Below, piece after piece: positions 42,776 through 63,588 of a DNA stretch of 63,991 nt; positions within the stretch are counted from its first letter, which is position 1, and each line of letters begins with the position of its first letter. This DNA comes from Planctomycetaceae bacterium (GTDB lineage Bacteria > Planctomycetota > Planctomycetia > Pirellulales > Pirellulaceae). The notes under the pieces are model-generated. The model did no database searches. It worked only from the letters and a program-made list of their open reading frames with translations, and was not told the origin of the DNA. The stretch is taken from NCBI GenBank assembly GCA_027487485.1, contig JAIYDN010000062.1, forward strand, positions 1 to 63,991. The letters run 5' to 3'. A program made the translations under genes and the position numbers.

Positions 42776-43783
42776 TTACGTGGAACCTGAGATATTGATT
42801 CGTCGCGAATTCGGACCTAGCCGAAGAAGGAGTTTTGGAAGACAAAGGTAGGAGGTATGAGTTGCATTGAACTGTTGATTTCGATCGACATTCCTAACTT
42901 CGTCCGTTTGGCGTGGCGACTGATCGAGAACTTGCAATATCTCGATTCGCATCTGAGGATAAATTGCAAGCAGGTTCGCAATTGTGTCAGATTGCAAACA
43001 ATTGGATGCTTGCCAAATGTGAGGTGGGTTTTCACCGAATCTATTGGCTAAAGCATTTGCCTTAGCGTCCCAGGGATAAGGTAACTCGGGCGGAATAGTT
43101 CGTTGCCATCTGCACTGGTCAAGGTACTTCTTGGTTGGTCCGACGAAGTGATAGATGAAGCTTTGCATCACGGGGTTGTTTGCCCACGCTGGCGTCTGAT
43201 GCAGGTTGATGTTGAAGTCTGGCGGAATAAAGCGAATGGAGCTGCGATGAAAAGTCCACAAGTGATTGACAATCAAGCACTCATCGCAGCCGAGATCGTG
43301 CTTGCCACCGGTTGGCAATAGATTGCTGATGATTTCTGCGAACATCAAACCGAAGGCATCGGTTCCGTAGAGGTACAAGCCTCCGTTTGGATGCGTCCAG
43401 GCTGGCGCTGCCAGGACGTCACAGCGTCGGGCCCATTCTTCATGTGCCATCTGATTCCAACTGGCTCGATCGACGCGTCGTTGCGGGCTCTGGCGACCCG
43501 AGACCATTGCGAAGTCTGTTGGTTCGACGAGGTCGAACGGCGATGGGCAGTCACTGCGGATTACCATGTCGTTGTCAAGCTGGAGAACATGACTGGAACC
43601 GAAGAGCGATTGCACGTGTTCGCAGACAAACATCTTCTGCCAGAACGGATGGCAAGAATGCAACGGGTTGGTGATCCAAAGAACCTGAGCGCCCCATCGC
43701 TTGGCAGCGGCTTTGTAGCTGGCTCGAACATTTGGTAGGCTTCGGCGCGGTGGCAAGTCGAGTACTGCAATGACTCGCTTCAT
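42776..43783 (-). CDS. GT8-like glycosyltransferase
   Basis: 335 residues. The ATG at 43783 lies two bases after the radical SAM stop. The GT-A fold signature HVLQLDNDMVIRSDCP carries a DxD metal-sugar site (about residue 70), GGLYLYG marks the acceptor side, and YHFVGPTKKYL matches the HFxGxxKxW element of family GT8 (glycogenin/LPS galactosyltransferase type). It should transfer a hexose from a nucleotide sugar. It is the last gene of the minus-strand series after the Ser-rich protein. Confidence 0.75.
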   Translation of the reverse strand: MKRVIAVLDLPPRRSLPNVRASYKAAAKRWGAQVLWITNPLHSCHPFWQKMFVCEHVQSLFGSSHVLQLDNDMVIRSDCPSPFDLVEPTDFAMVSGRQSPQRRVDRASWNQMAHEEWARRCDVLAAPAWTHPNGGLYLYGTDAFGLMFAEIISNLLPTGGKHDLGCDECLIVNHLWTFHRSSIRFIPPDFNINLHQTPAWANNPVMQSFIYHFVGPTKKYLDQCRWQRTIPPELPYPWDAKANALANRFGENPPHIWQASNCLQSDTIANLLAIYPQMRIEILQVLDQSPRQTDEVRNVDRNQQFNATHTSYLCLPKLLLRLGPNSRRINISGST

Positions 43784-43785
43784 CG

Positions 43786-44583
43786 TTATTGCTCCTTGTT
43801 GGTAGGATCTTGGTGATGGAACGGAGTCTTGCGTGCTGGACATAGACCACACTGGGAAATCTCCCGAGTCGCAAAGAACTCCCGTACCTCGTTGTCTGAG
43901 GCAGTTGGCGGACAAGCCTTGTAGTCTCGAAAGAGCTGCCACGCTGGGATCGCTTCCAGTCGAAGTTTTCGCTCCATACTTGCGAAGTATGCGAGAGCTG
44001 GGCATTTCCACAGATGGCCTTTGAACAACTGCGTGCATGATCTTTGGAGGCAGATCTTCCAGGCTGCTTTTGGGCGACTGTCGAAGGGCATCGGCTTGCC
44101 TTCAATCATGCGATACTGCTGCCGCCAGCCGTTGTGCGATTCACGGACTGTGATTTTCAGAGCAGGATAGGCAGCTCGCCATTCTTCGAGGCGCTGAAGC
44201 ACTTCTGTGAATTGCTGACGATATGCGTGTGCATTGCCGTGTTGCGACACATCCATGCGAAAGCCGTTGTCGATGAGCGCTCTCGGTAAATCTGGATGGC
44301 GACCTAGAAAGAAACCGTTGGTAACAAAAAGCCCAGACGAATCGGGGAACGCGCTACGAGCAAGCTCGATGATTTGAATCAAATCGGGATTGAGCGTTGG
44401 TTCTCCACCTAGGATTGCGATTTGCTTCGGTGCAAGTCGCCCTCGCCATGCTTCAAAGTTAGCATGTGCTTCGTCAACACTGACGATGCCACCTAGGTGG
44501 AAGTTGGAATAATGCGAGCACTGTGCGCAGTAGAGATTGCACGCATGTGCTGCATGGAACTCAAGGTTGGGAATCTCGATCAT
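43786..44583 (-). CDS. Radical SAM enzyme
   Basis: 265 residues from the ATG at 44583, giving the N-terminus MIEIPNLEFHAAHACNLYC; a longer open frame upstream has no support. The CxxxCxxC cluster motif is CNLYCAQC, followed by ILGGEPTLNPDL (GGE motif). The C-terminal Cys groups CLQRSCTQLFKGHLWKC and CGLCPARK would hold auxiliary Fe-S clusters, as in SPASM-type enzymes. Substrate unknown. Tight linkage to glycosyltransferases suggests it modifies a sugar or a glycosylated peptide. Confidence 0.85.
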   Translation of the reverse strand: MIEIPNLEFHAAHACNLYCAQCSHYSNFHLGGIVSVDEAHANFEAWRGRLAPKQIAILGGEPTLNPDLIQIIELARSAFPDSSGLFVTNGFFLGRHPDLPRALIDNGFRMDVSQHGNAHAYRQQFTEVLQRLEEWRAAYPALKITVRESHNGWRQQYRMIEGKPMPFDSRPKAAWKICLQRSCTQLFKGHLWKCPALAYFASMERKLRLEAIPAWQLFRDYKACPPTASDNEVREFFATREISQCGLCPARKTPFHHQDPTNKEQ

Positions 44584-44669
44584 AAGGGTCTTGAGCCTTG
44601 AATCTTGAAGTGAACGAAAGCAGCCGACACGAGTAGCGTGTCGGCTTGCGAGCAAACTAACCGCCTGTG

Positions 44670-45041
44670 TTAAATAACCACGTCCGAATCGTTGCCCGAA
44701 TCTACGATGTCTTCGGGACGAACTTTACGACGAGGCCATCCAGGTGGCAGTGGAACATTTCGTCCAGGATGGCCGGGCGGTAGGTTATTCGGATATGAGT
44801 AACCAGGTGGCAAATGATAGGGGTGGTCCGGTGGTAGCCTTGGCCAAGTGTAAATCGGCGGAGGATAAAGGACCTCGACCGGAGGTTCGGATACCGGTGG
44901 CCAAGCAAGATGGGGAGGCCACCAAACCGGACGCGGCTCGGGTACATACGGAAGCGGCTCTCCAGGTGGATCAAACGGAGGAGGCGGCCACCAGGGTGGT
45001 CGTTGTCCGTTGGGGCCGATTGGGCCATTGGGAATGGTCAT
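44670..45041 (-). CDS. Proline/Trp/Tyr-rich protein
   Basis: 123 residues with a strong ribosome-binding site (AAAGGAGTG). About a third of the residues are Pro, in motifs such as RPPWWPPPPFDPPGE, WWPPHLAWPP, LPPGYSYPNNLPPGHPG. It ends with a polar tail (RPEDIVDSGNDSDVVI). There is no signal peptide or TM helix, so it is either cytoplasmic or part of the virion-like particle. Function unknown; the extended Pro-rich chain could be a rigid spacer. Confidence 0.75.
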   Translation of the reverse strand: MTIPNGPIGPNGQRPPWWPPPPFDPPGEPLPYVPEPRPVWWPPHLAWPPVSEPPVEVLYPPPIYTWPRLPPDHPYHLPPGYSYPNNLPPGHPGRNVPLPPGWPRRKVRPEDIVDSGNDSDVVI

Positions 45042-45077
45042 CTTTCACACTCCTTTGAAAAGGGGAATCAAAACAAA

Positions 45078-45791
45078 TCAACGCCACATGACTTTGCGAA
45101 GTCCGTGTTTCTTAGTGCCAAGCCTCAAGTACTCCGGGCGATGGCGCACATAACCCGGTGGATCAACGTGAACGTGTTTGAAGACATGGTCGGTTGCGAC
45201 GGCGACCTTCATACCTGCAAGCTTAGCTCGCCAAAAGAAGTCCCAATGCTCCTCGACCTTGAGCTCTTCATCCCAGCGAATCGCTTGTAAGATGTCGCGA
45301 TAAGCAACGAAGCAGTTACCGACATAATCACAGCGAGCGATCTTGTCATGCCAACGATATGCTCCAGAGTAGATTCGCATCACACGATCTCGCGAGGCGA
45401 GCATTCGGGGGCCTTCTTCCGTGTTGCTCATGCCAGAAAGTAAATCTAGGTCTGGGTATCGATCGAGCTTCTCAACGAGCTCAGCAAGTCGGGTTTGTTT
45501 CGTGATGATGTGATCGTCATCCGTAAAGACAACTACGGGAGAATCGCCCATATCCAGCAATCGATTGCGACCAGCCGAAAGCCCAATGTCGTAATCGGTC
45601 TCAACGAGTCGATCGACCATTGCAGCTTCGTCCGGACAGCACTTTGAGAATCGCAGGTCTGGTCGACCGTCATCGAGCACGTGGATCAACGGCCTGTTAT
45701 CACCGCACTGCTCATAGATCGAGCGAACGAGCGTGGCACAACAATGTGGACGATGGATCGTCTTGATACAGAATGTTACTCGGTCACGCAT
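45078..45791 (-). CDS. GT2-like glycosyltransferase (paralogue B)
   Basis: 237 residues. It begins RVTFCIKTIHRPHC, has LIHVLDDGRPDLRF, GLSAGRNRLLDM and the DxD-type site VVFTDDDHII (about residue 92), and ends in the family-typical WDFFWRAKLAG, HVHVDP and YLRLGTKKHGL segments. It overlaps the end of the preceding GT2 gene by 8 bases and is about 35-40% like it by eye, so the pair arose by tandem duplication. Probably elongates the same glycan. Confidence 0.85.
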   Translation of the reverse strand: MRDRVTFCIKTIHRPHCCATLVRSIYEQCGDNRPLIHVLDDGRPDLRFSKCCPDEAAMVDRLVETDYDIGLSAGRNRLLDMGDSPVVVFTDDDHIITKQTRLAELVEKLDRYPDLDLLSGMSNTEEGPRMLASRDRVMRIYSGAYRWHDKIARCDYVGNCFVAYRDILQAIRWDEELKVEEHWDFFWRAKLAGMKVAVATDHVFKHVHVDPPGYVRHRPEYLRLGTKKHGLRKVMWR

Positions 45792-46539
45792 TTACGACCC
45801 CTCCTCCTGGATATCGCATGGAATGAAATCCGTGTTTGCGAAGTCCCATCGCTCGAAACTTCGGGCGACCTCGAAGATCGCCATAGGGCTTGGCTCCGAC
45901 ATGGGCATGAACCACTGAGCAATCGACTGCGACTGCGATCGCCAGTTTCTCTATTCGACTGGCTCGGTAAAAGAACTCCCAATGTTCGTAGGTCTTGATC
46001 GCTTCGTCCCATCGGACACGAGCGATTGTGTCGCGTTTTGCTAGAAACGCGTTGCTGACCATGTCACACCAGCAAACCGGTCCGACGCGTTTGTATTCGC
46101 CTCGATGCATCCAAATGCGTTTCCCATTCATGAGTGGGCTGAGCATCATCGGCTGCCCGCCTCCGCCTTGGCGAACCGCAAGGATGTCGAGTTTATGCTC
46201 CATGAATCGTTCATAGACGCGATCAAGATGCAGATCGGCAGTAACGATCTGATCATCGTCGAGCAAGAAAACCAGTTCGGTCTCTGCTGCATCGATCGCT
46301 GTGTTGCGTCCAATGCCGACTCCCACATCGTGCGTTTCTAGATCGATCACACGGCAATGTTTGGCGGTCTCGGGATACTTGGCCGAGAATCGCAATTCTG
46401 GGCGACCGTCATCCACAACGACGATCGTTGGCGAGTCGAACTCTTTACGCAAAGATTCCACCAGCCGGTGGCATGCCCACGGTCGATGGATCGTCTTGAT
46501 GCAGAAAGTGATTTGGTCGATTGGTAGATTGCTTGTCAT
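45784..46539 (-). CDS. GT2-like glycosyltransferase (paralogue A)
   Basis: 251 residues from the ATG at 46539; the frame extends about 100 codons upstream, but that part overlaps the nucleotidyltransferase-like gene. It has QITFCIKTIHRPWACHRLVE, VVVDDGRPELRFSA, GVGIGRNTAIDA, the metal-binding site LVFLLDDDQIV (about residue 92) and WEFFYRASR near the C-terminus. Both GT2 copies share the unusual FCIKTIHRP opening. Confidence 0.85.
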   Translation of the reverse strand: MTSNLPIDQITFCIKTIHRPWACHRLVESLRKEFDSPTIVVVDDGRPELRFSAKYPETAKHCRVIDLETHDVGVGIGRNTAIDAAETELVFLLDDDQIVTADLHLDRVYERFMEHKLDILAVRQGGGGQPMMLSPLMNGKRIWMHRGEYKRVGPVCWCDMVSNAFLAKRDTIARVRWDEAIKTYEHWEFFYRASRIEKLAIAVAVDCSVVHAHVGAKPYGDLRGRPKFRAMGLRKHGFHSMRYPGGGVVNA

Positions 46540-46547
46540 GTGCGAGC

Positions 46548-46988
46548 TCACGGATTGGAGATCATTTGGATTAGCTTCATGAAATGTCGAAAGTCTTTGC
46601 CGCGATTGGCTTGGAGCTTCATTCGAAGAACAACATCTAGGGGTGCGACGTTTCCAAGTTCTGAAATCAAGGATCGATCGAACACGGCATCGAAATCGCT
46701 TGGCTGGAATTTGCCTATCTGATGGATAAGGTCGAGCTTGGGGGAGCAGCCGATTCGGGTCGAGTGTTGGATTCCACCGCGTCCGTTGTCGTCGCCACGA
46801 TTCCAAATCTTTTGGTGGTGCCGCGCAACTCGATTCACCAGAGCGTCCCATTCATCAACGGGTATGGTTGGATCGAGCCACGCATCAATGTCTCGCTGCC
46901 CCCAATCGAATCCATGAAGCTGGATCGCCGTCGATCCGACAATCAAGTAACGCTGGTTTAGCTCGCCAAGAACCGAAATCGCACTCAT
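46548..46988 (-). CDS. Nucleotidyltransferase-like protein
   Basis: 146 residues; its ATG overlaps the stop of the GT25 fusion gene by one base. It begins LGELNQRYLIVGSTAIQLHG then RDIDAWLDP, matching the G(G/S)xA...HG...(R)D(I/x)D pattern of nucleotidyltransferase-fold proteins such as AbiEii-like or NTP-transferase relatives. The second catalytic acid is not certain. It may activate a sugar or be unrelated to the glycan pathway. Family placement is tentative. Confidence 0.6.
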   Translation of the reverse strand: MSAISVLGELNQRYLIVGSTAIQLHGFDWGQRDIDAWLDPTIPVDEWDALVNRVARHHQKIWNRGDDNGRGGIQHSTRIGCSPKLDLIHQIGKFQPSDFDAVFDRSLISELGNVAPLDVVLRMKLQANRGKDFRHFMKLIQMISNP

Positions 46989-48322
46989 CAGCCGAACTTC
47001 CTCAATTCTGGATTGACGTGAGCGATGGCCGACTCGAGTTCTTCCTCTGTTGGATCGATGCCGAGGAATTCGACTAGTCTTGCGATGCCAGCGGCCGGAT
47101 CTTTTGTTAGTTCTGCGAAGTCAACCCGAAGCACAGGGACTTTCGGATTTGCCTTTATGAATCGTTCACGATGATCCAACAATGATCGTTGCAATCGCTC
47201 GCAAGCCGCATCGTCTGCAGCGAACCACTGACCACGATGTTTGTTGCTTCGATCTTGAAGTGAACGAATCGACGCCTCGATGGGTCGATCGACAGCGATG
47301 ATACGAAGTGAATCTCCAAGGCCGGCGTACAAGTGCTCTGCGAATCGGCAAAGATGTGGATACTTGGCCCCTGCGACTGTCTTATCGCGATTAGCTTCCG
47401 TCTTACGACCAACAATCCAGCTTTTAAGCTGCTTGGTGAGTTGCCCGTCGCCTACCTTCGGATCAATGGCTGGGAATCTCATGACACTCTCACAGAGTTT
47501 GGCTAACCCGATCGCTTCGCCACCTCCTGTCACCTCGTATCCGCCGAGTTCGTTCCCCATGTGAACGCCAAGATGATGCATGACCATCGCAACGCAGGAT
47601 GTTCCAGATCGGTGTGGACCAAGAACAGCGAAAAACGGAGCGTCAGAATGGTCCGCATTACGAGCGTCGTTGAAGAATCGGGTTTGCTCCCACTTGCGTC
47701 CGCAGATGTTCGATTTGGTCGGGAGCTGCCCCACGAGCCAACGATCGGGCGTGTAAACAGCAAGTGATTCTTTATCGACCGTCTTTGACTGAACCATCAT
47801 CTCGTAGCGTCGCTGGGTGAGGCGACCAAGGTGATGATCAATGTGATGCTTCACATGCCACTCGTTCCAGTTCAAATGACGATAGAGCGTCTTCATTGCC
47901 AATCGACCTCGCACCATGAATGCGTGTGTGCGGTTGACATTGAACGGACGATAAACGCGCTCGCTGACTTTCTGAGGAGGATGCTTGCCGGCGTAGAGAT
48001 GCTGTCCACCGAGATAAGCTAATCCCCAGTCCTCCGGAAGCTCTGCGACATACTGCTGAAACTGCTCCGTGAATTCTGATCCGAATCCTGCGTCGTCTTC
48101 GAAGACAACATACGAATCGATGCCTTCAAGTAGACACTTCTCAAGTATTAGCAAATGCGATCGATAGCATCCCCAGGCACCGTTTCCAGCTCGCCACTGC
48201 GGAGGCGTTGCTAGTCGCCGGCCGTCGATAGCAGCGAAACGTTCTGGCTCAGGGAATGGCCATGGGTTTGGCAATTGATCCAGCCACTCACGTAGCCGAT
48301 CATCGCGCCGATCTAGGTTCAT
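46988..48322 (-). CDS. GT25 glycosyltransferase fused to sulfotransferase
   Basis: 444 residues from the ATG at 48322. The open frame continues 50 codons further, where a few residues (KIVERCFL) look like the first strand of GT25, so the real start may be slightly upstream at a non-ATG codon. Residues 1-200 are GT25: NLDRRDDRLREW, RFAAIDGRRL, GAWGCYRSHLLILEKCL and the EDD motif VVFEDDAGFG. Residues about 230-440 resemble a sulfotransferase: LGPHRSGTSCVAMVMHHLGV (5'-PSB loop for PAPS) and IIAVDRPIEASIRSL (3'-PB). One chain that adds a sugar and a sulfate is unusual. It follows the Ser-rich structural gene by one small gene. Confidence 0.75.
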   Translation of the reverse strand: MNLDRRDDRLREWLDQLPNPWPFPEPERFAAIDGRRLATPPQWRAGNGAWGCYRSHLLILEKCLLEGIDSYVVFEDDAGFGSEFTEQFQQYVAELPEDWGLAYLGGQHLYAGKHPPQKVSERVYRPFNVNRTHAFMVRGRLAMKTLYRHLNWNEWHVKHHIDHHLGRLTQRRYEMMVQSKTVDKESLAVYTPDRWLVGQLPTKSNICGRKWEQTRFFNDARNADHSDAPFFAVLGPHRSGTSCVAMVMHHLGVHMGNELGGYEVTGGGEAIGLAKLCESVMRFPAIDPKVGDGQLTKQLKSWIVGRKTEANRDKTVAGAKYPHLCRFAEHLYAGLGDSLRIIAVDRPIEASIRSLQDRSNKHRGQWFAADDAACERLQRSLLDHRERFIKANPKVPVLRVDFAELTKDPAAGIARLVEFLGIDPTEEELESAIAHVNPELRKFG

Positions 48323-48344
48323 TAGGAAACATCGTTCAACGATC

Positions 48345-48914
48345 TTATTCGTTGTCGGTGTCGTCAGTGTCGTCGTCGTTTGGCTCGGGTGCTCCGTCTG
48401 GGAACTTGCGTTCGAAGCGACGGATGGCGGTGATGACGAGCGACTTTGCGATAATGCGAGTAAACTTCCCACTTGGTAATCCTCTCAATTCGGCTTCTTC
48501 TAGTAACCATTCCACGATCGTGTCGAGATTCTGTCGGCAACCTTTAACTCCCCAATCGTTCATCGTGTCGGCGCGTGTCTCGCACTTGCACGAATCACTT
48601 GGGCGAGCGAACCAAGCGAGCATTTTCTTAAGCTCGTTCCCGGGCCCGGGGCGAAAGTCGTTAATTCGAAAACTGACCGGCTCTTCCCCCGTTGGCTTAT
48701 ACTGATTCATCAATTGGCGTAGTTCGGCGATCGGCTTGCCAAGTCGCTTGCGATGAACGATTGCCATTCCGAGCGTCACGACATTGACTGCTTGTGGATT
48801 AGGATCTTGCTGGCACGCTTCGCAGGTTTTCGCTGATGCGAGTACTTTGCATTCGGCGACTTGCGATGCAACGCGGCACTTATTGTCGGGAGTGAGGTGT
48901 GGGCAATGGATCAT
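48345..48914 (-). CDS. Cys-containing protein of unknown function
   Basis: 189 residues; its ATG overlaps the stop of the Ser-rich gene (ATGA). The N-terminus has MIHCPHLTPDNKCRVA, ECKVLASAKTCEAC: five Cys and a His spaced like a small zinc-binding module. A further CKCETRADTMNDWGVKGC follows. The C-terminus is acidic (DDDTDDTDNE). Being coupled to the Ser-rich protein it may act on it or recruit modifying enzymes. No family recognised. Confidence 0.7.
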   Translation of the reverse strand: MIHCPHLTPDNKCRVASQVAECKVLASAKTCEACQQDPNPQAVNVVTLGMAIVHRKRLGKPIAELRQLMNQYKPTGEEPVSFRINDFRPGPGNELKKMLAWFARPSDSCKCETRADTMNDWGVKGCRQNLDTIVEWLLEEAELRGLPSGKFTRIIAKSLVITAIRRFERKFPDGAPEPNDDDTDDTDNE

Positions 48915-51637
48915 GCAGCCACCTCCATCACCGCGCCGTCATAGCTGCCTGCACCCTCGGGTGGTTCTGGGGTTTCGCAGTCCGAATCCAGCAACTCCCA
49001 GCCGCATGACCAGATCCATGTACTTGTACAACCGCTGCTGGAACTTCCTGGTGGCGGTTCGCTTGGTGGCTCCGAATCCGATGTGCTTGGGCGACTTCCT
49101 TCAGACTCAGACGGGTTGGAATCCGATGGCTGTGAATCGGAATCGCTTTCGGACGTGCTATCTGAGTAGGACGTGCTTCCTGATGGATGATGACTTTTTG
49201 AGTCGCTATAGCTTGGATAGTCGCTGGTGCTGTACGAGGGTCGATCGCTACTTGGATCTTCGCTTTTGCTCTCCGATTCGCTATGGCTGGTCGATTCGCT
49301 ATTACTTTCGGAGGTGCTTTCCGAAGTACTTGTGCTGCCAGATTCGCTTGTACTCGGTGAACCGCTTCCAGAGTAGCTTGGTCGGCTAGTACTGTAGGAA
49401 TCGCTGCCAGAATATGATTTGCTTTTAGAGTCGCTCTCCGATTCTGAATCGGATTGGCTTTGTGATTCACTCCCACTATCACTAGAAGATTGAGGGACGC
49501 TAGTACTGATGGAGCCGCTGTCCGAATGAGATTCGCTTTCGGAATCGCTTTGTGATTCACTGTTTGAACTTTCGGAATCGCTACCGCTGGAATCACTGCC
49601 GCTCGAATCGCTATGGCTTCCGCTCGATCCGCTCGAGTAGCTTGGCGTGGAATAACTTGGATGCGACGTGGATCTACTCGCGCTAGTCGATTCACTCGAT
49701 GCCGAATCTGAATTGCTCGAGTCAGATCCGCTCGATTCGGAATCGCTGGATTGGGAATCACTAGAATCGGATTCGCTGGACGCGGAATGGCTACTCGATA
49801 CGCTTGGCAAGCTGTCAGATTCGGATGACTTCGAATCGTCGGAACTCGAATCGTTAGAACTGGAATCGGACGATTGACTGGATTCACTACCGGAACTGCT
49901 GGATAGCGACTGGGACGAGTGGCTGCACGAAGGCTTGGAACCGGAAATGCTGATTGATGATTGGCTCGGTGAACCACTTGATGAATCGCTGCTTGAGCCA
50001 CTCTCGGAGGAATCGCTACTTGAGCTTGATCCGCTGCTTGTTGACGAACTGCTATTGGGCTCGCTGTAGGATTGGCTCGATTGGCTTGAATCGCTGCTTA
50101 CGGAGGAACCGCTGCTGGAAGAATCAGAGCTGGAGGAAATGGAGCTCGATGAATCGCTGTTTGATGAATCACTATCTGATGCAGACGAAGATGACAACGA
50201 GCTGGACGATCCACTAGAGCTAGATGAACTCGACGAGTCGCTTGAGGAGCTGAATGATGACGAACTCGAACTTTGCGAACTGCTACTCGACGACGATGAC
50301 GAACTGCTGCTCAGACTTATGGATGACCTGCTTGACGATCCGCTGCTCGAAGAAGGTGAAGACGAGCTGCTTGAGCTTGGCGAGCTACTACTGGAGGAGC
50401 TCGGCGACGAAGAACTGCTAGACGAAGAGCTAATCGATGAGTCGCTCGATAGACTGCTCGACGGGCTGCTGCTCGATGAAGATGAGTCAGAACTGCTACT
50501 GGACGATGAGCTGATACTAGATGACGACGAGCTGCTAGACGAGCTTGAGCTACTACTGGAGCTTGAACTAGAGCTTGAGTCGCCGGAGCTGCTCGAACTC
50601 GAACTGCTCCCGTCGCAGCATCGGCAGCCGATGGTTAGATAAGCGGAGGTGTCCTCATGGAAATGGCAAACAATCTGTTGGCTTGCGAGCAATGCGTAGT
50701 CGCAGACGTTGTAGACGGCGACTTTCACGCCGATTGGCGACCAAGCACCACCGGCGTAACGTAGCTCGCGAGCCATGCCCCATGACTTTGATTTGATACG
50801 ACCAAGTGGTTTGCAGAGCAAGGTTTGTTTGGGTGGATCGATAATCCAGGAACGATTGCCATCGTAGGTGACACTGAGATACTGATCACCTTCGTAGTTG
50901 GAAACCGGACCTCGAATGCGCTGGGCGCTCGGGTTGCAAGCGATGATGCGAACGCCTTGTCCATTCGGCTTTCGAACTGGTTCAATGGTCCCAGAATCAT
51001 CGAGCTGAAAGAGATCGCAATTGGCGGCACCCGTCGCAAGACCAGAGCGAGAAGGGATACCACCGCTTGGGACCTTCACAAGGAACGCAGGATCGGCTGG
51101 CTTACCGATTCGAACCACAGCCCATTGCACACCCCATTGATTTGGATCACGTCGCCACAGGATTTGAGCCGATCCGTTTGGCTTCGATTGGAGAGTCGTT
51201 CCTCCCGCGTCGGCGACGTCTGCATACTGATGCCAGGTCTCTTGTACGTTGACCTTGGCAGCCACCACGCCGGCGAACACCACACGACCGACTTTATCTT
51301 CCGCAATCGGTTCAATCGCGACACCGAAGCGACCCGCGTGCGATTCAGTGGTTGGTCGGACCGATTGGATCGTGGCATCACGTACGAAACGAGCGAGGTC
51401 CATTGGGCCTTCGTCAGGATCGCCAAGTGGGGCGTTAAAACCGACGATTCCACCGATGGGCACAGTGGTCGCACTTTGGTAGTGAACGCGAACTGTGGCA
51501 GCGTCGCGAACGTGGGTGCGATTTCCACCGCCACCAGAGAGACGATCTCGAGCAATAGCATCAGCGGCCGCCAGCAACCGGTTGTATTCGGCTGCGGTGA
51601 TGTTGAGTCTCTCGCCTGGTTTAACGCGACGGGCCAT
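48911..51637 (-). CDS. Large phage-like structural protein with about 525 residues of Ser-rich repeat
   Basis: 908 residues. Residues 1-343 are a normal globular sequence (begins MARRVKPGERLNITAAEYNR, hypothetical) ending in CRCCDG. Residues about 344-868 are nearly all Ser with interspersed Asp, Glu, Gly, Gln, Tyr and Pro. The last 40 residues form a Cys/Trp cap (GCTSTWIWSCGWELLDSDC). The Ser codons are mixed (AGC, AGT, TCG, TCC), so the protein sequence rather than a DNA repeat is conserved. It lies at the distal end of the tail genes, where fibres or spikes are encoded, and is coupled to the gene before and after it. A heavily O-glycosylated fibre is the best inference. Confidence 0.8.
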   Translation of the reverse strand: MARRVKPGERLNITAAEYNRLLAAADAIARDRLSGGGGNRTHVRDAATVRVHYQSATTVPIGGIVGFNAPLGDPDEGPMDLARFVRDATIQSVRPTTESHAGRFGVAIEPIAEDKVGRVVFAGVVAAKVNVQETWHQYADVADAGGTTLQSKPNGSAQILWRRDPNQWGVQWAVVRIGKPADPAFLVKVPSGGIPSRSGLATGAANCDLFQLDDSGTIEPVRKPNGQGVRIIACNPSAQRIRGPVSNYEGDQYLSVTYDGNRSWIIDPPKQTLLCKPLGRIKSKSWGMARELRYAGGAWSPIGVKVAVYNVCDYALLASQQIVCHFHEDTSAYLTIGCRCCDGSSSSSSSSGDSSSSSSSSSSSSSSSSSSSSSISSSSSSSSDSSSSSSSPSSSLSSDSSISSSSSSSSSPSSSSSSSPSSSSSSSPSSSSGSSSRSSISLSSSSSSSSSSSSQSSSSSSFSSSSDSSSSSSSSGSSSSLSSSSASDSDSSNSDSSSSISSSSDSSSSGSSVSSDSSQSSQSYSEPNSSSSTSSGSSSSSDSSESGSSSDSSSGSPSQSSISISGSKPSCSHSSQSLSSSSGSESSQSSDSSSNDSSSDDSKSSESDSLPSVSSSHSASSESDSSDSQSSDSESSGSDSSNSDSASSESTSASRSTSHPSYSTPSYSSGSSGSHSDSSGSDSSGSDSESSNSESQSDSESESHSDSGSISTSVPQSSSDSGSESQSQSDSESESDSKSKSYSGSDSYSTSRPSYSGSGSPSTSESGSTSTSESTSESNSESTSHSESESKSEDPSSDRPSYSTSDYPSYSDSKSHHPSGSTSYSDSTSESDSDSQPSDSNPSESEGSRPSTSDSEPPSEPPPGSSSSGCTSTWIWSCGWELLDSDCETPEPPEGAGSYDGAVMEVAA
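49034..50608 (-). repeat. Ser-rich coding repeat tract
   Basis: The DNA coding for the Ser-rich part. It starts as almost pure poly-Ser and changes towards the C-terminus to (S-D/E/G/Q)n dipeptides and motifs such as PSYS and STSES. Because codons vary, there is no long perfect DNA repeat. On the opposite strand it gives Leu/Glu/Asp-rich frames that are not genes. Confidence 0.9.
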
Positions 51638-52428
51638 TACTCGATCCCCAATGCGTTAAAGTTCGCTTCGGGGTAAACCTGCTCGACGTAAGCTGCTTCA
51701 GGGACTTGTAGCACGCGATCGCCGACAACCTCTTCGCCATGCTTGACCCAGAGGTAATCCCATCCTCGCTTCGACACGCCATGGATACTGCCAATGCTGA
51801 CATTCGTCTCGTTTGGGCGCGCCGCGAAGTGATAGGTCACATCGACCCAGTTCTGTTCGTCCTCGCCACCTTCGCCACCGAGGAACAGTGCTTCGCCGGG
51901 CGCGAAGATCGACCATGGTGTTGAATTGACGCGGCCAGTCATCGCGACCATGGCAAGTAGATAGTCGGTCGATACAAACTCAAACTTCTTGCGAACGGAG
52001 AACTCGAACGCTGGCACAGTCACATCGACGCCGGCGACACCGGAATCGCTGACTCCGATCGCGCCACGATAGTTGGGCGCGATTTTGCCACCTGCCGCGT
52101 AAATGCCACGCGTAAAGAGAGATTGATTTATATGAGTCGATGCGCCGGTGGTGTTAAACGAGACTGGATCGAGCTTCGTCTTGTTGATCGAAGCGGTCAC
52201 CAGGGCATGCTTCTCATTGATGTACTCACCATCCACTTGCAAGAATGGAATCAGATCGCGCTGAGTGGATCGGTAGTACGACAGAACTGCATCCGCAGCG
52301 GCGGCAGGATCGACCGAGCCACCGTTGGTACCGACATAGACGAACGTGTCCGAAGTCGCCTTGCCACGCGTAGCCTTCTTTGAAAGCGCCGCCAGTTCGA
52401 AGTTGTATCCGCCACTTGAGAATCCCAT
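51637..52428 (-). CDS. Phage-like protein next to tape measure, unknown function
   Basis: 263 residues. Its ATG overlaps the tape-measure stop by one base, and its own stop overlaps the ATG of the Ser-rich gene by one base. The sequence is beta-rich with no signal peptide (starts MGFSSGGYNFELAALSKKAT). The position after the tape measure is that of distal tail or baseplate proteins, but I see no specific family motif. Confidence 0.7.
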   Translation of the reverse strand: MGFSSGGYNFELAALSKKATRGKATSDTFVYVGTNGGSVDPAAAADAVLSYYRSTQRDLIPFLQVDGEYINEKHALVTASINKTKLDPVSFNTTGASTHINQSLFTRGIYAAGGKIAPNYRGAIGVSDSGVAGVDVTVPAFEFSVRKKFEFVSTDYLLAMVAMTGRVNSTPWSIFAPGEALFLGGEGGEDEQNWVDVTYHFAARPNETNVSIGSIHGVSKRGWDYLWVKHGEEVVGDRVLQVPEAAYVEQVYPEANFNALGIE

Positions 52429-55400
52429 TAGCTGAACACGAAGCCTCCCGTACGGGCTCGTGAAGCCAACTGAGCGGTGTTCTCAGCGGTCTGAATGATG
52501 GCTCGCTTCACATCGTCCGAGAGGCCTTCACCAGTAACTTGTGGCATCTGCAACCGAGCAACACTCAGCGAGAGTGCAGCGTCAAATTCATCGAGGCGTA
52601 CGCGGACTGCTGCGAAGGACGCTAACAGTGACTCAAGATTGAGCGAGGGTTGTAAATCGGTAGTCGAAGGTTCAACCATGTCCTCTGGAGTCGCAACTTC
52701 TGTATTCATCGGCTGCGGCGCGATCTCTTGTTCTACTTCAGGCAATTCCGGATTCGCTTCGCCAGCGTCGGCTCCGTCCTTTGCATCGACATCGTCATCA
52801 GCGTTGGCAGCATCAGGTTGATCTAGCGGTTCCATCGTAGGAATGAGCGACGCACCACTACCGAGGCCTAGCCCACGACTCTCAAAGTTGCCGGCCGCTT
52901 CGGTTTTCTCCGCGTTGTCCTTTGGTCCTTTGGAGAACTGGTCCATCGAATCTTTGGCAGATCGATCTAGACCGAGTTTGAGGTCCTTCTTCTTTGGTGG
53001 TTTCAGCTTGGGGTCTTTGATGCCGTCGACACTGACTCTCGGAACCTTCAAATCGCCGGGCTTGGGCATCGTTGGAGGCTTAGGAGCATTTGCAGCTGGA
53101 TCGGCCTTCTTGGGCTCTTCCACCTTGATGTTGTTGGCTGTCTCAACGGCAGTGTCGAATTCGGCTTGAGCTGCAGCAACTTGCTCATCGCGTTCTTTAG
53201 TGCGATCCTCGGGCGATTGGCGACCAGCTTCGCGGGCAATACGAGCCTCTTCACGCATTTGGTCGAGAGTCTTTTGGACACCAATTGTCGTGTCGTCAAT
53301 CGTCTTTTGTCGAGCATGGCCAGCTACTTCGTTCTCTTTGAACTGCTCCTCTTTTGAGGCATCAACCGTTTTGTTCTTCGCTTCCGTCTCTTGATCAATG
53401 ACGGCCATCTCAGCATCGATATCGCGACCCGCTCGGGCCTTGCGACGTTCCTCAAGCTGCTGCTTGATTCCTTCCTGCATTTGCACACGATTGGATTCGA
53501 TTTGCTGTTTGCGAGCATCTCGCCGCTTCATACGCTCGGCGATGGCTTGCTGCTTCTTAGCCTGCTCGGTTTCGTCGGCTGTTTTGATCTCTTTGTCGAT
53601 CTTGGCCATTTCGACTTCGACGTTCACATCGTCATCGAACAGGGACTTGAGTTTGATCCATGCTTTACGCAGAAAGCCGACAGTCGAGTTCCACATCGAC
53701 TTGACTTGGGCAACGAACACCGACCAGGTGTCAGCGAGATAGTCGATGGTCTCAACCCAAGCGGTTTCGACACCTGCTAGTGCGTTGATGAGCACTCCGC
53801 CGATTTGTACCGAGACATCTCCAGCGATGTCTACAAGCTCTCGCAGGCGAATGAATCCCTTCTTGAGGAATCCGATCGTGTAGTTCCAGCCCTTCTGCAC
53901 GGAGGTCGTCAAAATCGCCCAGCCATCGGACATAAAGCCAAGCGTCGCGTTCCAAACGCTAGCAAGTCCCGACAGGGCACTGATCAGAACATCCCCGATG
54001 GCATAGGCTGAATCGCCCCATACATCGGAAATGTAGTTAGTGAAATCAGCCCACACACCTTTGAGATAGGTGGTCCCTTTGATCCATTGCAGCTTGAGAT
54101 AACTCCACAACACATTGGCGGCTGCCGTGATGTCGCCCGCCGCAAGTGCGTTGGCGATAGCACCGAATGCTTTGATTGTGTCGGCCTTGAGTGTTTCAAA
54201 AACGCCTTTCAAGTATTCGATCGCTTGGCCCGCAATGCCGGACGAGTAGATGAAGTACGCACCCAGCGCTGCAACCGCAGCGACCACTAGGCCAATGGGC
54301 GTGAATAGCGCACCGATCATCGTCACCAAAACGCCAATCGCAGTTCCGACCAGCGAAAACATGGATGCCAGCCCACCAACAGCGAAGGCGGCCACACCAG
54401 CAGCGCTTCCGATTCCGATGAATGCAGCGCCAACTCCAACGACGCCAGCGACAATCAATGCGACCTTCTTGACGATCTCCTTGTTCTTGCCAATCCATTC
54501 TGTGAGCCCTGATAGTGCACGCGAGATCGACTTCATCATCGAGCTAACCGATGTGTCGAGCGCCTCGCCGATCGCGATCGCGACACCTTCGACAGAGCTT
54601 TTCAGGATCCGGAAAGCACCGCCGATGCCGGCCTCCATGTCTGCAGCGGTCTTGGCAGCAATTCCACCGGAGTTTTGCAGCTCGGCGAGCAATTGACGCG
54701 TATCGGTCACCGTCTTACCAATGGCGGATGCACTGGTGATACCGAGCAAACCAAAGACTTCATTGAATGCTTCGGCTCGATCACCGGTCCCCATGTTGGC
54801 GGTCGCCGCAGAAACTTCACCAAGCACGTCTACAAGGTTGCGAGCGTTGCCTTGTGCATCTTTAGTCGCGACACCGAACACCTTCATAAACTTTTCGGAT
54901 TCAGCCGCACTGAGTGTTAGCAGACGACGGAGTGCGGTACCGGCTTCGCTACCTTGAATCCCGAGGTTACCAAGGGTGCCAAGGATAGCGAGCGTTTCCT
55001 CAAGGCTCATGTTGGCATCGGAGGCCACTGGACCCGCATAGGACAACGCTTCACCGAGCGATTCCACAGAGTTGAATGACTTATTGGCTGCTGCGGTTAA
55101 ACCGTCGGCAACGCGAACTGCATCGCTTGCTTCCATCGAGAACTGGCGAATGGTAGCTGCCATGATGCCAGAACTGAGCGTGGCATCGGTACCAGTTGCC
55201 CTTGCAAGATTCATGACGGCAAGCGTCATTTCTTCGATCTGCTTTGGAGAGAAGCCAGCGCGACCGAGTTCCGTCATGAGCGAAGCGACTTCAGTAGCAG
55301 AGAAGCTTGTGGTTGCTCCTAAGTGCTTCGCGGTATTGCGTAGAGATTCGAAAGTTTCGCCAGTCGCGTTGGCTGCTGCACCCGCAGCGCGAATTGCATC

Positions 55401-55601
55401 GTCAAAACTGGTATAGACCGCGAGGCTTCCAGCCACTGGAGTTGCGGCGGCAACTCCCAAACCTGTGAGCTTCGTTCCGAGCAAGCGTGTTGAAGCACCA
55501 AATGACTTAAGCCGCTTCTGCGCAGCTTCGAGTCCCTTGAGGAATTGAGAACTCCTCGTTGTCAGCTCGACGTAGGCTCCTCCGGCTTTAACTTGCGACA
55601 T
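52428..55601 (-). CDS. Phage tail tape measure protein (TP901 family)
   Basis: 1057 residues. The N-terminal part (about 1-350) has the TP901 core: VYTSFDDAIRAAGAAANATG, LGATTSFSATEVASLM, ELGRAGFSPKQIEEMTLAV, SDANMSLEETLAILG. Hydrophobic segments follow at about 365-455. The middle has aromatic repeats with GW/VW spacing (about 490-660). Then come a charged coiled-coil region (about 670-830) and a Pro/Lys/acid-rich tail. The protein sets tail length, so a siphovirus-like tail is expected. The ATG at 55601 lies inside the end of the small gene upstream (40-base overlap). Confidence 0.9.
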   Translation of the reverse strand: MSQVKAGGAYVELTTRSSQFLKGLEAAQKRLKSFGASTRLLGTKLTGLGVAAATPVAGSLAVYTSFDDAIRAAGAAANATGETFESLRNTAKHLGATTSFSATEVASLMTELGRAGFSPKQIEEMTLAVMNLARATGTDATLSSGIMAATIRQFSMEASDAVRVADGLTAAANKSFNSVESLGEALSYAGPVASDANMSLEETLAILGTLGNLGIQGSEAGTALRRLLTLSAAESEKFMKVFGVATKDAQGNARNLVDVLGEVSAATANMGTGDRAEAFNEVFGLLGITSASAIGKTVTDTRQLLAELQNSGGIAAKTAADMEAGIGGAFRILKSSVEGVAIAIGEALDTSVSSMMKSISRALSGLTEWIGKNKEIVKKVALIVAGVVGVGAAFIGIGSAAGVAAFAVGGLASMFSLVGTAIGVLVTMIGALFTPIGLVVAAVAALGAYFIYSSGIAGQAIEYLKGVFETLKADTIKAFGAIANALAAGDITAAANVLWSYLKLQWIKGTTYLKGVWADFTNYISDVWGDSAYAIGDVLISALSGLASVWNATLGFMSDGWAILTTSVQKGWNYTIGFLKKGFIRLRELVDIAGDVSVQIGGVLINALAGVETAWVETIDYLADTWSVFVAQVKSMWNSTVGFLRKAWIKLKSLFDDDVNVEVEMAKIDKEIKTADETEQAKKQQAIAERMKRRDARKQQIESNRVQMQEGIKQQLEERRKARAGRDIDAEMAVIDQETEAKNKTVDASKEEQFKENEVAGHARQKTIDDTTIGVQKTLDQMREEARIAREAGRQSPEDRTKERDEQVAAAQAEFDTAVETANNIKVEEPKKADPAANAPKPPTMPKPGDLKVPRVSVDGIKDPKLKPPKKKDLKLGLDRSAKDSMDQFSKGPKDNAEKTEAAGNFESRGLGLGSGASLIPTMEPLDQPDAANADDDVDAKDGADAGEANPELPEVEQEIAPQPMNTEVATPEDMVEPSTTDLQPSLNLESLLASFAAVRVRLDEFDAALSLSVARLQMPQVTGEGLSDDVKRAIIQTAENTAQLASRARTGGFVFS

Positions 55602-60804: not shown

Positions 60805-61158
60805 CTATTGACTCAAACGTAAACGGACTGTGAGTGTGCCTGGCGGCGCGGCTTCAATGGCTTTGCCGATCATTGAATGTGCATATGCGTTCTTGACCAC
60901 ATGCCAGCTGATTTGGGACCAGTAAAGGATCGTTCCAGCAGGAATGTTGGTCGTTGGGTCCTTGACGACATCGAAGACGCCACGAACCGTGATGCTGCCT
61001 CGTGAGCCCGCACTAATCCCAAACTTGGCGATACCCACGAGCTTGCCCACGACGACGATCGATCCCGCAGGCACATCAGCCTCAGGTACGAAGTCGACGG
61101 TCGTGCCGTCAGCAACGTGGATTGCTCCAATGTTTATGATTTGTGCGTTGTTGCTCAC
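60805..61158 (-). CDS. DUF2190 family protein (copy 2)
   Basis: 117 residues. VDFVPEADVPAGSIVVVGKL, GIAKFGISAGSRGSITVRGVFDV and IPAGTILYW fit the DUF2190 family, small beta proteins encoded next to capsid genes and thought to decorate capsids. Related to the gene just upstream (61168). Confidence 0.8.
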   Translation of the reverse strand: MSNNAQIINIGAIHVADGTTVDFVPEADVPAGSIVVVGKLVGIAKFGISAGSRGSITVRGVFDVVKDPTTNIPAGTILYWSQISWHVVKNAYAHSMIGKAIEAAPPGTLTVRLRLSQ

Positions 61159-61167
61159 GGTGTCTCA

Positions 61168-61497
61168 TCACTGGCTCAGGCGAACGCGGACATAGGAATC
61201 AGTGGCGGCGGCGTCATTCACGACTTTGCCGAGATACTTGGTGCCAACATCGTCAGCGACCACAGCCCCGTCTTCATCGACGTAGACCTTGGTTCCCGCT
61301 TCGAATTCGATTGCTAGGGCTGGGTCTTTGGGAATATCAAAGACGCCTTCCACAGCGATGGAGCCGAGTGAACCAGCCTTGATGTCGCGTTTGGTAATCC
61401 CTACCAAGTCGCCTTGGATCACGATTGATCCAACGGCAACATCAGCGGTAGGAGTGAAATCGACGGCCTTACCGTCATGAACAAATTGAGCTTGCAT
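61168..61497 (-). CDS. DUF2190 family protein (copy 1)
   Basis: 109 residues. VDFTPTADVAVGSIVIQGDL, GITKRDIKAGSLGSIAVEGVFDI and FEAGTKVYVDEDGAVVA are typical of DUF2190. The tandem pair with 60805 arose by duplication (both end in RVRLSQ or VRLRLSQ). Probable capsid cement. Confidence 0.82.
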   Translation of the reverse strand: MQAQFVHDGKAVDFTPTADVAVGSIVIQGDLVGITKRDIKAGSLGSIAVEGVFDIPKDPALAIEFEAGTKVYVDEDGAVVADDVGTKYLGKVVNDAAATDSYVRVRLSQ

Positions 61498-61554: not shown

Positions 61555-63588
61555 CTATTCGCCGGTCACTTTCACCGCAGCGCGAGCATCTTGCGAATTC
61601 ACGCCAAAGTCGATGTAGGATCGGAAGCCCATGCCGAGGGTGTTTGGAGGCATCTCGACGCGTTCGATGACCGGCGTGCGTCGACCATTAAGGAACACAA
61701 TCTCAAACGCAGGTAGCACATTCGGGTTAGCGAACAGATACCAAGCTGAGCCGCTGGCTCCTTGGTAGTAACTATCCGACAAGTGCGGCGTTGAAATGAC
61801 GCGATACTTGTTGCGGTGAGGGTTGTCGACCGGAATCTTGGTCGGCGTACCTTGTGCGTCGATCATGAGCTGAGCGGAACCCATCAGTAGCTCGGCATCG
61901 GTTTCGATTTCCACCGGAACAACCAAGAACTCGGGCCGAATATTGATCGGCTTTTGATCCTTGGCTTTGTTACCTGGACCAGCCTTCTGTTTGCGGAAGG
62001 TGGTCTTCGCAATCGTTAGAGACTCAGGACCGAACTTGGTGTCTGGACCCGTCAGCAAGTTTCCGTTGGCGGACGAGAAGAACGCAGTGTTCTTGAGTAG
62101 CAACGTGAAGAACAGTTCGTCGATCGACTCGGCACCGCTGCGTCCCATTTGACGAGGGATATCCATGAACGCGTTGAGATCATCGTTAATGATGTCGTGA
62201 CGAGTCAGTGCAAGGATCTGACCATAGGTATCAGCCTTGTTGCTGTACTTTTGGTCCGAGAGCTTGCCATGCTTCAGCTCACCATCAGGTGCGACCTTCT
62301 CGAAACCTCCTGTACCGAGCAATCGATAGCGAGAAATCTCCTTGAAGTCGCTCACAGTCCCAATACTGCACAGGTCAAACGCAGCGATCGGCGTCGACTC
62401 ATAGGCTGACAAGAGCGTCTTATTCATGACGTTTTCAAGGATGCCAGGCAGTGACATCGTAGAGAATCCGGCACGAATCGTTGCGGTACCGTCGCCGAAC
62501 ACGCGCGGAATGTCGTGGCCCTCCAATCGCGCGCATTCAGCGACAAGTTCCCGCAAGCCGATGTGACGAAGTGGATCGGCAGAATTGAGTGTTCGCTCGC
62601 CATAGGCCTTGAGCAACTTCGTTTCATCGAGCCCTACCGACAGACAACAAGCTGCCTCAAGGACTTCGCGTCGGTACATAGGTTGGCTTGCCTGTTGATC
62701 AGGGGCCTTGGGACGTTCGATTCGTAGCACTGCCAACTCCGTCTTGGTTACACTCCAGCCCTCTTCGATCGAGCGAGCTTCGATCTCTGGATGCTTGCCG
62801 GCGCAGACCTTGCGGATGCCGGAGATTCGTTTGGATTCAGCGGCGGCTTCGATTCGCATCTTGGAAACTACTCCATTGGTATTCGTCCGCTTTGGTTTGG
62901 CAGACAGTTCGAGACTTGCGTTGACTGGGTCGAGTTCCGAATCGTCAGACTCGGTGTTGTCCTCGTCTGGATCATTGCCATCGAGGTCATCGTCGCCCTC
63001 AGCTTGGCCAGCCGCGATACGTGCCTCGGTGTCATCGTCGGCACCGAGGGCCACGAAAGACACCTCGCCGAGCGTTGACTTACGTGCGATGTAAACTGGA
63101 CCTTTGAACTCGCGACTGTTGGCGGTAGCTGTTTTGCCTTCGGGAATGAAGACAACTTTGTCGGCGTTCGCACCGAGCGACGCTTGCCAAGGGAAACCGT
63201 TCTCGCTGGTGGCAATGACTTCCTGAGCAGTGTTACCCACACCCGAGATCACGCCTGCGACTTCCAGTCGCGAATCGCCGACCATGATGTCGTCGGTGTG
63301 ACCAACGATACTGGCGCGATCATGGTCCTTGAGGATTGGGCGCGACTTGCGAGTCACTCGCATGCCTGCTAGGTCCACAACCACAGGATAGGGCCAACCG
63401 CCGAGTCGCATCGCGCCGCCTGTGTAAGCAACCATCGAGAACTTGCGCAGCGATGGCTTACCCTCTTCGGCAGCCTCCGATGCTTGCAGGTTAATCGAGC
63501 TGGCATCGTCACAAACGATTCGTAGCGAGCTGGGCACCGATTCGGCATCCACTTCACTCTGCTTACTTGACTGCTGTGTCTTCGTCAT
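61555..63588 (-). CDS. Prohead protease-major capsid protein fusion
   Basis: 677 residues. The N-terminal part (about 40-190) is prohead-protease-like, with the His site RPILKDHDRASIVGHTDDI and LGEVSFVALGADDDTEA. An acidic linker (DDDLDGNDPDEDNTESDD, about 195-218) follows. The C-terminal part (about 330-677) resembles Mu-like (gpT) capsid subunits: AFDLCSIGTVSDFKEISRYR, LALTRHDIINDDLNAF, ELFFTLLLKNTAFFS. Protease and shell protein would thus be made in equal amounts, and the protease could cut itself free. The start overlaps the portal gene end by 26 bases. Confidence 0.88.
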   Translation of the reverse strand: MTKTQQSSKQSEVDAESVPSSLRIVCDDASSINLQASEAAEEGKPSLRKFSMVAYTGGAMRLGGWPYPVVVDLAGMRVTRKSRPILKDHDRASIVGHTDDIMVGDSRLEVAGVISGVGNTAQEVIATSENGFPWQASLGANADKVVFIPEGKTATANSREFKGPVYIARKSTLGEVSFVALGADDDTEARIAAGQAEGDDDLDGNDPDEDNTESDDSELDPVNASLELSAKPKRTNTNGVVSKMRIEAAAESKRISGIRKVCAGKHPEIEARSIEEGWSVTKTELAVLRIERPKAPDQQASQPMYRREVLEAACCLSVGLDETKLLKAYGERTLNSADPLRHIGLRELVAECARLEGHDIPRVFGDGTATIRAGFSTMSLPGILENVMNKTLLSAYESTPIAAFDLCSIGTVSDFKEISRYRLLGTGGFEKVAPDGELKHGKLSDQKYSNKADTYGQILALTRHDIINDDLNAFMDIPRQMGRSGAESIDELFFTLLLKNTAFFSSANGNLLTGPDTKFGPESLTIAKTTFRKQKAGPGNKAKDQKPINIRPEFLVVPVEIETDAELLMGSAQLMIDAQGTPTKIPVDNPHRNKYRVISTPHLSDSYYQGASGSAWYLFANPNVLPAFEIVFLNGRRTPVIERVEMPPNTLGMGFRSYIDFGVNSQDARAAVKVTGE

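Follow-up and report, generated by a model that had tools for sequence, protein, structure and literature searches.

Few phages, to our knowledge, have been found to carry glycans on their virions. In mycobacteriophages (Che8 and its kin) phage-encoded glycosyltransferases are linked to glycans on virion proteins, and the major capsid proteins are reported as carriers (PMC11256854). The serine-rich repeat protein (SRRP) systems of Gram-positive bacteria are described as O-glycosylated on Ser/Thr (PMC6973325). Here we report a phage locus with likeness to both, found in a planctomycete contig (G000:C112, 63,991 bases, analysed whole and called the window below) within a 7.49-Mb assembly, taken as planctomycete from the names of genomes that share its module: a gene for a 908-residue Ser-rich protein is followed on the same, minus strand by genes for a Cys-module protein, a GT25-sulfotransferase fusion (GT25-ST), two GT2 enzymes (GT2a and GT2b) and several further proteins (Table 1). 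The reading we favour, at a probability of roughly 65%, is that the Ser-rich protein stands on the virion surface and is glycosylated, and probably sulfated, on its Ser stalk by the enzymes encoded behind it.

As in the SRRP systems, a very long Ser-rich tract is encoded beside several glycosyltransferases, and as in the mycobacteriophages these enzymes are phage-encoded, with glycans on a virion protein as their predicted product. In contrast to the mycobacteriophages, a dedicated Ser-rich protein adjoins the enzymes. The glycosyltransferase genes lie within the phage's own structural module, behind the tape-measure and Ser-rich genes. The parallel with SRRP adhesins drawn in a preliminary description of this DNA holds for function but not for family: the Ser-rich gene here is a phage structural gene, and GT25-ST and GT2 enzymes stand in place of the GtfA/GtfB type. 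The core GtfA/GtfB pair of SRRP systems is GT4-like (Pfam Glycos_transf_1), and the SRRP C-terminus carries an LPXTG cell-wall anchor. The cassette proteins scanned gave no accessory-Sec, GtfA/GtfB-type (GT4) or Glycos_transf_1 match, and the C-terminus of the Ser-rich protein has no LPXTG-type anchor, ending in a Cys/Trp cap and GSYDGAVMEVAA. Among 50,697 annotated phage records, none matched its N-terminal domain at E<=1e-3 and three matched GT25-ST in part, at 28-33% identity; a literature search at title and abstract level found no account of a system pairing a Ser-rich protein of this kind with such enzymes.

Evidence for our reading comes from the recurrence of this gene arrangement. The open reading frames (ORFs) and the same-strand order given in the preliminary description are present, with tight junctions, and the co-occurrence comparison that it proposed bears out the linkage of the Ser-rich gene to glycosyltransferases. 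Of 117 genomes, 32 encode the N-terminal domain, among them the genome of the window. Among 28 GT25-ST loci in named records, 22 encode the N-terminal domain and all 22 of these have a Ser tract, 259-619 residues long (in L147 it lies in the next gene); the other six are contig pieces (L135, L140, L142, L159, L161) and a broken copy (L160) in which the Dit-like and GT25-ST genes are shortened and the N-terminal domain is missing. Forty viral contigs tell the same story: GT25-ST is present on 23 of the 24 that extend at least 1.1 kb past the Ser-rich gene, and the lone exception (L191) ends behind a fused Ser-Cys ORF. At least four elements, from R. rubra, are common to the two collections. Within the first 20 regions, a Ser tract and GT25-ST with GT2a occur together in L034, L036-L038 and L040-L046; L035 and L039 stop within GT25-ST, L047 and L053 stop earlier, and L048-L052 are distant. 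Throughout, GT25-ST, the Cys-module protein and GT2 form the core, while the genes for the nucleotidyltransferase-like (NT, in 7 of the 28 loci), radical SAM, GT8-like and Pro-rich proteins vary in presence and order. Identity of the N-terminal domain is as low as 46-47% in L158 and L198, against 78-81% for GT25-ST. At the level of gene content, a coupling of the Ser-rich gene and glycosyltransferases in close relatives is thus supported, and the module is present in named strains, Rhodopirellula rubra CECT 8075 (four loci) and Rubripirellula obstinata CECT 8602 (two).

The tract itself contains 329 Ser among its 532 residues, measured on L034, which matches the window exactly in this protein and its DNA; by eye it is almost pure poly-Ser proximally, with SD, SE and SQ dipeptides distally. 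All six Ser codons are used (AGC 101, TCG 57, AGT 51, TCC 47, TCA 44, TCT 29), and the DNA holds just four short tandem arrays, of period 15-18. This codon mixture and the shortness of the arrays indicate that the tract is not a simple DNA repeat and make selection on the protein likelier than slippage. The Cys/Trp cap behind it is kept in 12 of 14 complete close-group proteins (the exceptions being L041 and L053) and in 21 of 21 loci of a second test set from which L147 was left out. Locus L034 belongs to another genus (G050:C52), and its Cys-module, GT25-ST and NT proteins are also 100% identical to the window's, with the GT8-like protein at 76%; this pattern points either to recent transfer, with an edge left by recombination, or to contamination.

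Among the enzymes, the GT25, sulfotransferase, GT2a, GT2b and radical SAM assignments pass the Pfam cut-offs. GT25-ST scores 38.5 bits against PF01755 (cut-off 24) and 30.9 bits against PF00685 (cut-off 22), which confirms the sulfotransferase domain proposed earlier; PF13469 stays below its threshold (25 against 27). The acidic GT25 motif EDD is present in 50 of 50 relatives, and the GPHR[SA]GTS loop, which we take to be the 5' phosphosulfate-binding loop of the sulfotransferase, in 46 of 50. The DDD motif is kept in GT2a (44/44) and in the GT2b core (44/44), CxxxCxxC in the radical SAM enzyme (33/33) and D-x-D in the GT8-like protein (20/20); these counts pool genome and viral relatives, some elements being in both collections, and the 47 full-length GT25-ST loci represent 42 distinct proteins. 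With a dN/dS of 0.009-0.076 for GT25-ST among unsaturated pairs, several of which have dS >1.5, and with catalytic motifs near-invariant, the enzymes are evidently under strong purifying selection. By sequence, the nearest solved chain to the GT25 part is procollagen galactosyltransferase 1 (E 4.9e-4), and that to both GT2 enzymes is beta-1,4 N-acetylgalactosaminyltransferase 1 (GT2a E 2.5e-9, GT2b E 4.4e-5). Procollagen galactosyltransferases glycosylate proteins. The enzyme here resembles that type of GT25 in its Pfam match and nearest solved chains, and differs from it in being fused to a sulfotransferase and phage-encoded, with an acceptor that we infer.

The phrase “complete glycosylation gene set”, used in the preliminary description, overstates the case, as the scan of the cassette proteins turned up no sugar-nucleotide enzyme and two of the labels are unproven. 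The GT8-like protein, a putative glycosyltransferase, matched no Pfam family at E<=0.05 (PF01501 included) and no solved structure by sequence, and profile scans gave the nucleotidyltransferase label no support. As a separate observation, L159 and L160 share an inserted ORF (589 and 94 residues, with near-identical first residues) behind a truncated GT25, whose match ends at residue 253, near the sulfotransferase start, in an insertion-like arrangement.

Table 1. Features of the phage late module in the window
Feature	Position	Strand	Remarks
Ser-rich protein, 908 residues	48911-51637	-	ORF present
N-terminal part, residues 1-341	50615..51637	-	predicted folded: ~42-182 beta-tulip-like base, 185-341 second beta-rich part
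Ser tract, residues 342-873	49019..50614	-	62% Ser
C-terminal Cys/Trp cap, residues 874-908, plus stop	48911..49018	-	STW-x-WSCGWEL...
Cys-module protein, 189 aa	48345..48914	-	AlphaFold2 model of low confidence, pLDDT 69
GT25-sulfotransferase fusion (GT25-ST)	46988..48472	-	true start uncertain, 48322-48472
Nucleotidyltransferase-like protein (NT)	46548..46988	-	label by eye only
GT2 enzyme a (GT2a)	45784..46539	-	start taken at 46539; PF00535 43 bits
GT2 enzyme b (GT2b)	45078..45791	-	PF00535 29 bits
Pro-rich small protein	44670..45041	-	
Radical SAM enzyme	43786..44586	-	CNLYCAQC; PF04055 34.8 bits
Putative glycosyltransferase, GT8-like	42776..43933	-	D-x-D
Dit-like protein, 263 aa, beside tape measure	51637..52428	-	label from position only
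Tail tape-measure protein	52428..55601	-	PF10145 157.6 bits; phrog_28
Two Phage_cement_2 proteins	60805-61158, 61168-61497	-	PF09956 E 1.8e-22 and 9.2e-24
Major head protein with protease	61555..63588	-	phrog_4523 E 8.9e-75

Natural variants of the arrangement are consistent with a modified stalk. In L041 and L147 (and in L191) just a short S/D linker is left in the N-terminal protein, and a long Ser tract opens the Cys-module protein; in L041, where the N-terminal protein has a different C-terminal domain, GT25-ST and GT2a are retained, and tblastn found no NT, GT2b, radical SAM or GT8-like gene. Locus L105 has a Thr-rich tract of TTGTG repeats beside a Pfam GT2 enzyme and an ORF that is sulfotransferase-like by eye only; its Thr tract suggests that hydroxyl residues are what is kept. 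In L080 and L128-L130 a Pfam Mannosyl_trans3 enzyme is encoded behind a Ser/collagen-like protein that is separate, L129 also having a Cys-module-like protein, and L082, L083 and L104 have GT25-sulfotransferase proteins of their own (the GT25 part of L104 being under the cut-off). Across the distant tract-bearing loci, the slot is filled by glycosyltransferases of the GT2, GT25, GT1, GT64 and Mannosyl_trans3 families. Other departures were also noted: L141 (Rubripirellula obstinata) has the Ser-rich gene and enzyme block with no tape-measure and Dit-like genes ahead; L076 has a collagen-like (Gly-X-Y) stretch at the position of the Ser tract; and the Ser/Gly-rich gene L109:4253-5446 contains an intein/Hint-like domain (PT-HINT E 1.9e-4, under the cut-off), families also matched by two members of set A3.

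A wider comparison across the phylum points the same way. A profile of the N-terminal domain found it in 38 of 392 genomes (E<=1e-6); loci were taken from 47 of 74 profile places and 13 from the 117-genome search, with L048, L049, L050 and L052 added. Nineteen of the 60 were short or open and were dropped (L075, L076, L081, L083, L095, L108, L111, L113, L114, L119, L121, L122, L124-L127, L131-L133), including L083, which does carry a GT25-sulfotransferase. The loci compared lay outside the close group and had about 7.8 kb or more downstream. Nineteen were tract-bearing, the Ser/Thr tract lying either in the domain gene or in a structural neighbour, and 26 were tract-less; L115, in which a short ORF rich in Ser/Thr lies some 4 kb off, was counted among the latter. 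ORF calling was mechanical and covered the coding strand: 2-6 ORFs were scanned in each tract-less locus, whereas in tract-bearing loci all those of at least 110 residues starting within 8 kb were scanned for 11 loci and chosen ORFs for the rest. Among the matches listed (25 of 66, 25 of 45 and 25 of 27 families), a glycosyltransferase at the Pfam cut-off accompanied 13 of 19 tract-bearing loci (L048, L049, L050, L052, L074, L080, L082, L086, L091, L105, L128, L129, L130) against 3 of 26 tract-less ones (Fisher p 1.2e-4, a figure that, like those below, ignores kinship). At E<=1e-3 the counts become 15/19, with the addition of L104 (GT25, E 2.4e-4) and L123 (Stealth_CR2, E 1.5e-5), against 3/26 (p 7e-6); counted by genome they are 11/16 against 3/20 (p 0.0017). 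The tract rule was arrived at stepwise, counting first Ser in the domain's own gene and later Ser/Thr there or in the next genes; the first rule gives 8/10 against 8/35 (p 0.0017), and leaving out L091, which passes only that looser first rule, gives 12/18 against 3/26 (p 2.6e-4).

Several observations weigh against a glycosylated Ser stalk, or against the strength of this comparison. Nearby glycosyltransferases are also carried by the tract-less loci L084, L085 and L094, and nine loci (L080, L093, L103, L105, L106, L109, L128-L130) were re-sorted from the tract-less class after a Thr tract (L105) or a Ser-rich neighbour of the domain gene had been noticed. A Ser-rich gene standing without a linked glycosyltransferase, the pattern that the preliminary description had set against its own proposal, appears in none of the adequate close-group loci; among the distant tract-bearing loci, 4 of 19 come with a weak match at best (MptE-like in L093, L103 and L109, none in L106, which is close to L103). 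On the tree of the domain, about six changes of tract label are needed, of which one is forced by well-supported branches; so few changes imply that the distant association does not represent many independent events, and a tree-aware pair test lacks the power to reach significance. The glycan on the Ser tract is, moreover, inferred from the genes, and the acceptor could be a different virion protein. We regard the distant association as suggestive, and give more weight to the coupling in the close group and to the natural variants.

The acceptor question is central to the alternative that the enzymes act on a surface polysaccharide of the host, as in serotype conversion by prophages, or on another virion protein or the phage DNA, and merely occupy a convenient slot in the late operon. 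GT25 and GT2 families often act on polysaccharides, GT2a weakly matches the TET-associated glycosyltransferase family PF20691 (21.0 bits, under the cut-off of 27.5), DNA methyltransferase-like proteins are encoded upstream in the relative G005, and the glycosyltransferases in L084, L085 and L094 fit this alternative as well. Typical serotype-conversion systems, however, have membrane segments, and a scan of the GT25, GT2 and other cassette enzymes found no membrane-like ones; seven of the ten upstream ORFs examined in G005, which cover part of the element, have PHROGs matches, none of them listed as TET or base-hydroxymethylating (three are unmatched); and a convenient slot alone would not predict the contrast between tract-bearing and tract-less loci. 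We consider this alternative unlikely.

It is more doubtful still that the tract carries no modification and is either a flexible linker or low-complexity sequence adrift, with glycosyltransferases adjoining it by history. The wide spread in tract length and the collapse of the association to few changes on the tree would suit such an account, against which stand the presence of a tract in every one of the 22 domain loci, the mixed codons in the window, the conserved cap, the Thr-rich counterpart in L105 and the movement of the tract between genes in L041. Chiefly non-sugar modification, such as phosphorylation at SD/SE with the glycosyltransferases decorating a few sites or the cap, seems to us very improbable. 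The abundance of such dipeptides, by eye, in the distal tract speaks for it; against it, no kinase family is among the matches listed for the cassette proteins scanned.

Where on the particle a glycosylated Ser-rich protein would sit depends on which evidence is followed. Gene order places its gene in the tail module, away from the major head protein, in agreement with the earlier assignment to the fibre or spike end of a tail cassette; the predicted fold of residues ~42-182 is nearest to the beta-tulip-like bases of capsid-cement and head-fibre proteins, which speaks against that assignment. In phage T1, the beta-tulip domain of the cement protein gp48 is N-terminal and its C-terminus protrudes (PMC11945409). 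The predicted base resembles T1 gp48/gp49 in fold; in contrast to them, it has no sequence match, its gene lies in the tail module and the extension is a Ser tract. The N-terminal domain had no Pfam match, a profile search of PDB sequences returned only a ribosomal protein at E 0.79, and hhalign comparison with the window's two cement proteins was not significant. Going by the fold, the protein may lie on the capsid; going by gene order, at the tail tip.

We propose that the N-terminal base would anchor the Ser-rich protein on the particle, with the Ser tract as an extended, mucin-like stalk and the Cys-rich cap at its end. On late expression, soluble enzymes would O-glycosylate the stalk at its Ser residues within the cell, GT25 or one of the GT2 enzymes starting the glycan and the others extending it, and the sulfotransferase domain would add sulfate to it as particles assemble or beforehand. 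The particle would then bear a sugar brush that is dense and possibly acidic. What the sequences establish are gene order, domains, conservation and recurrence; the acceptor, the succession of steps, the sugars and the site on the particle belong to the proposal. Such a brush, if sulfated, would bear on host finding, persistence in water and escape from receptors; a Ser-rich protein dedicated to carrying glycans, encoded with the enzymes that act on it, would open virion glycosylation to testing, for example in the named strains; and GT25-ST offers a new candidate enzyme for the O-glycosylation of proteins in bacteria. More tentatively, and at somewhat less than even odds, a mucin-like coat may be common to planctomycete phages of the whole phylum: stalks of Ser, Thr or collagen-like sequence, borne on a beta-tulip base, would receive O-glycans and often sulfate from enzymes encoded right behind them, various glycosyltransferase families having been recruited to this one task, and the particle would carry an acidic glycan brush programmed by its genes.

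The surrounding cassette reads as the late module of a tailed prophage, in which the Ser-rich gene ends the head-tail run. From 63588 to 52428 the minus strand encodes a protease-bearing head protein, two cement proteins, head-tail joining, neck and tail tube proteins and the tape measure. These head, cement, neck and tape-measure genes are hallmarks of a tailed-phage late module, and the one-contig genome G005 extends it with portal and terminase genes, further upstream of which are ParB-like/methyltransferase, primase-like and RusA-like genes. The Dit-like protein matched no family in the profile scans of window proteins; a homologue lies within 3 kb upstream of the domain gene in 52 of 55 distant loci. 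Genes overlap at TAATG (tape measure/Dit-like and Dit-like/Ser-rich), ATGA (Ser-rich/Cys-module) and TGATG (GT25-ST/NT), and the junctions from the tape measure through the Cys-module gene suggest translational coupling. A terminator-like hairpin (44646-44622) separates the Pro-rich gene from the radical SAM gene, in a scan that found 10 such sites against 8.7 expected from shuffles; the radical SAM and putative GT8 genes may accordingly form a separate unit.

Some further observations concern the neighbourhood of the module. It is flanked in the window (6893-42762) and in G005 (L056, L037) by genes resembling, by eye, those for heavy-metal efflux (RND, P-type ATPase and others); behind it in L040, L042 and L045 stand efflux-looking genes as well, and in L036 and L046 restriction- or defence-like ORFs. 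Two small contigs of the window's genome, L002 (G000:C56) and L003 (G000:C34), hold further partial GT2a-GT2b-GT8 copies, L002 also with a radical SAM gene. Another portal-like and terminase-like pair, upstream of the first, is present in L055 (G005:C1:1458969-1463975), an arrangement that resembles tandem prophages or a partial duplication.

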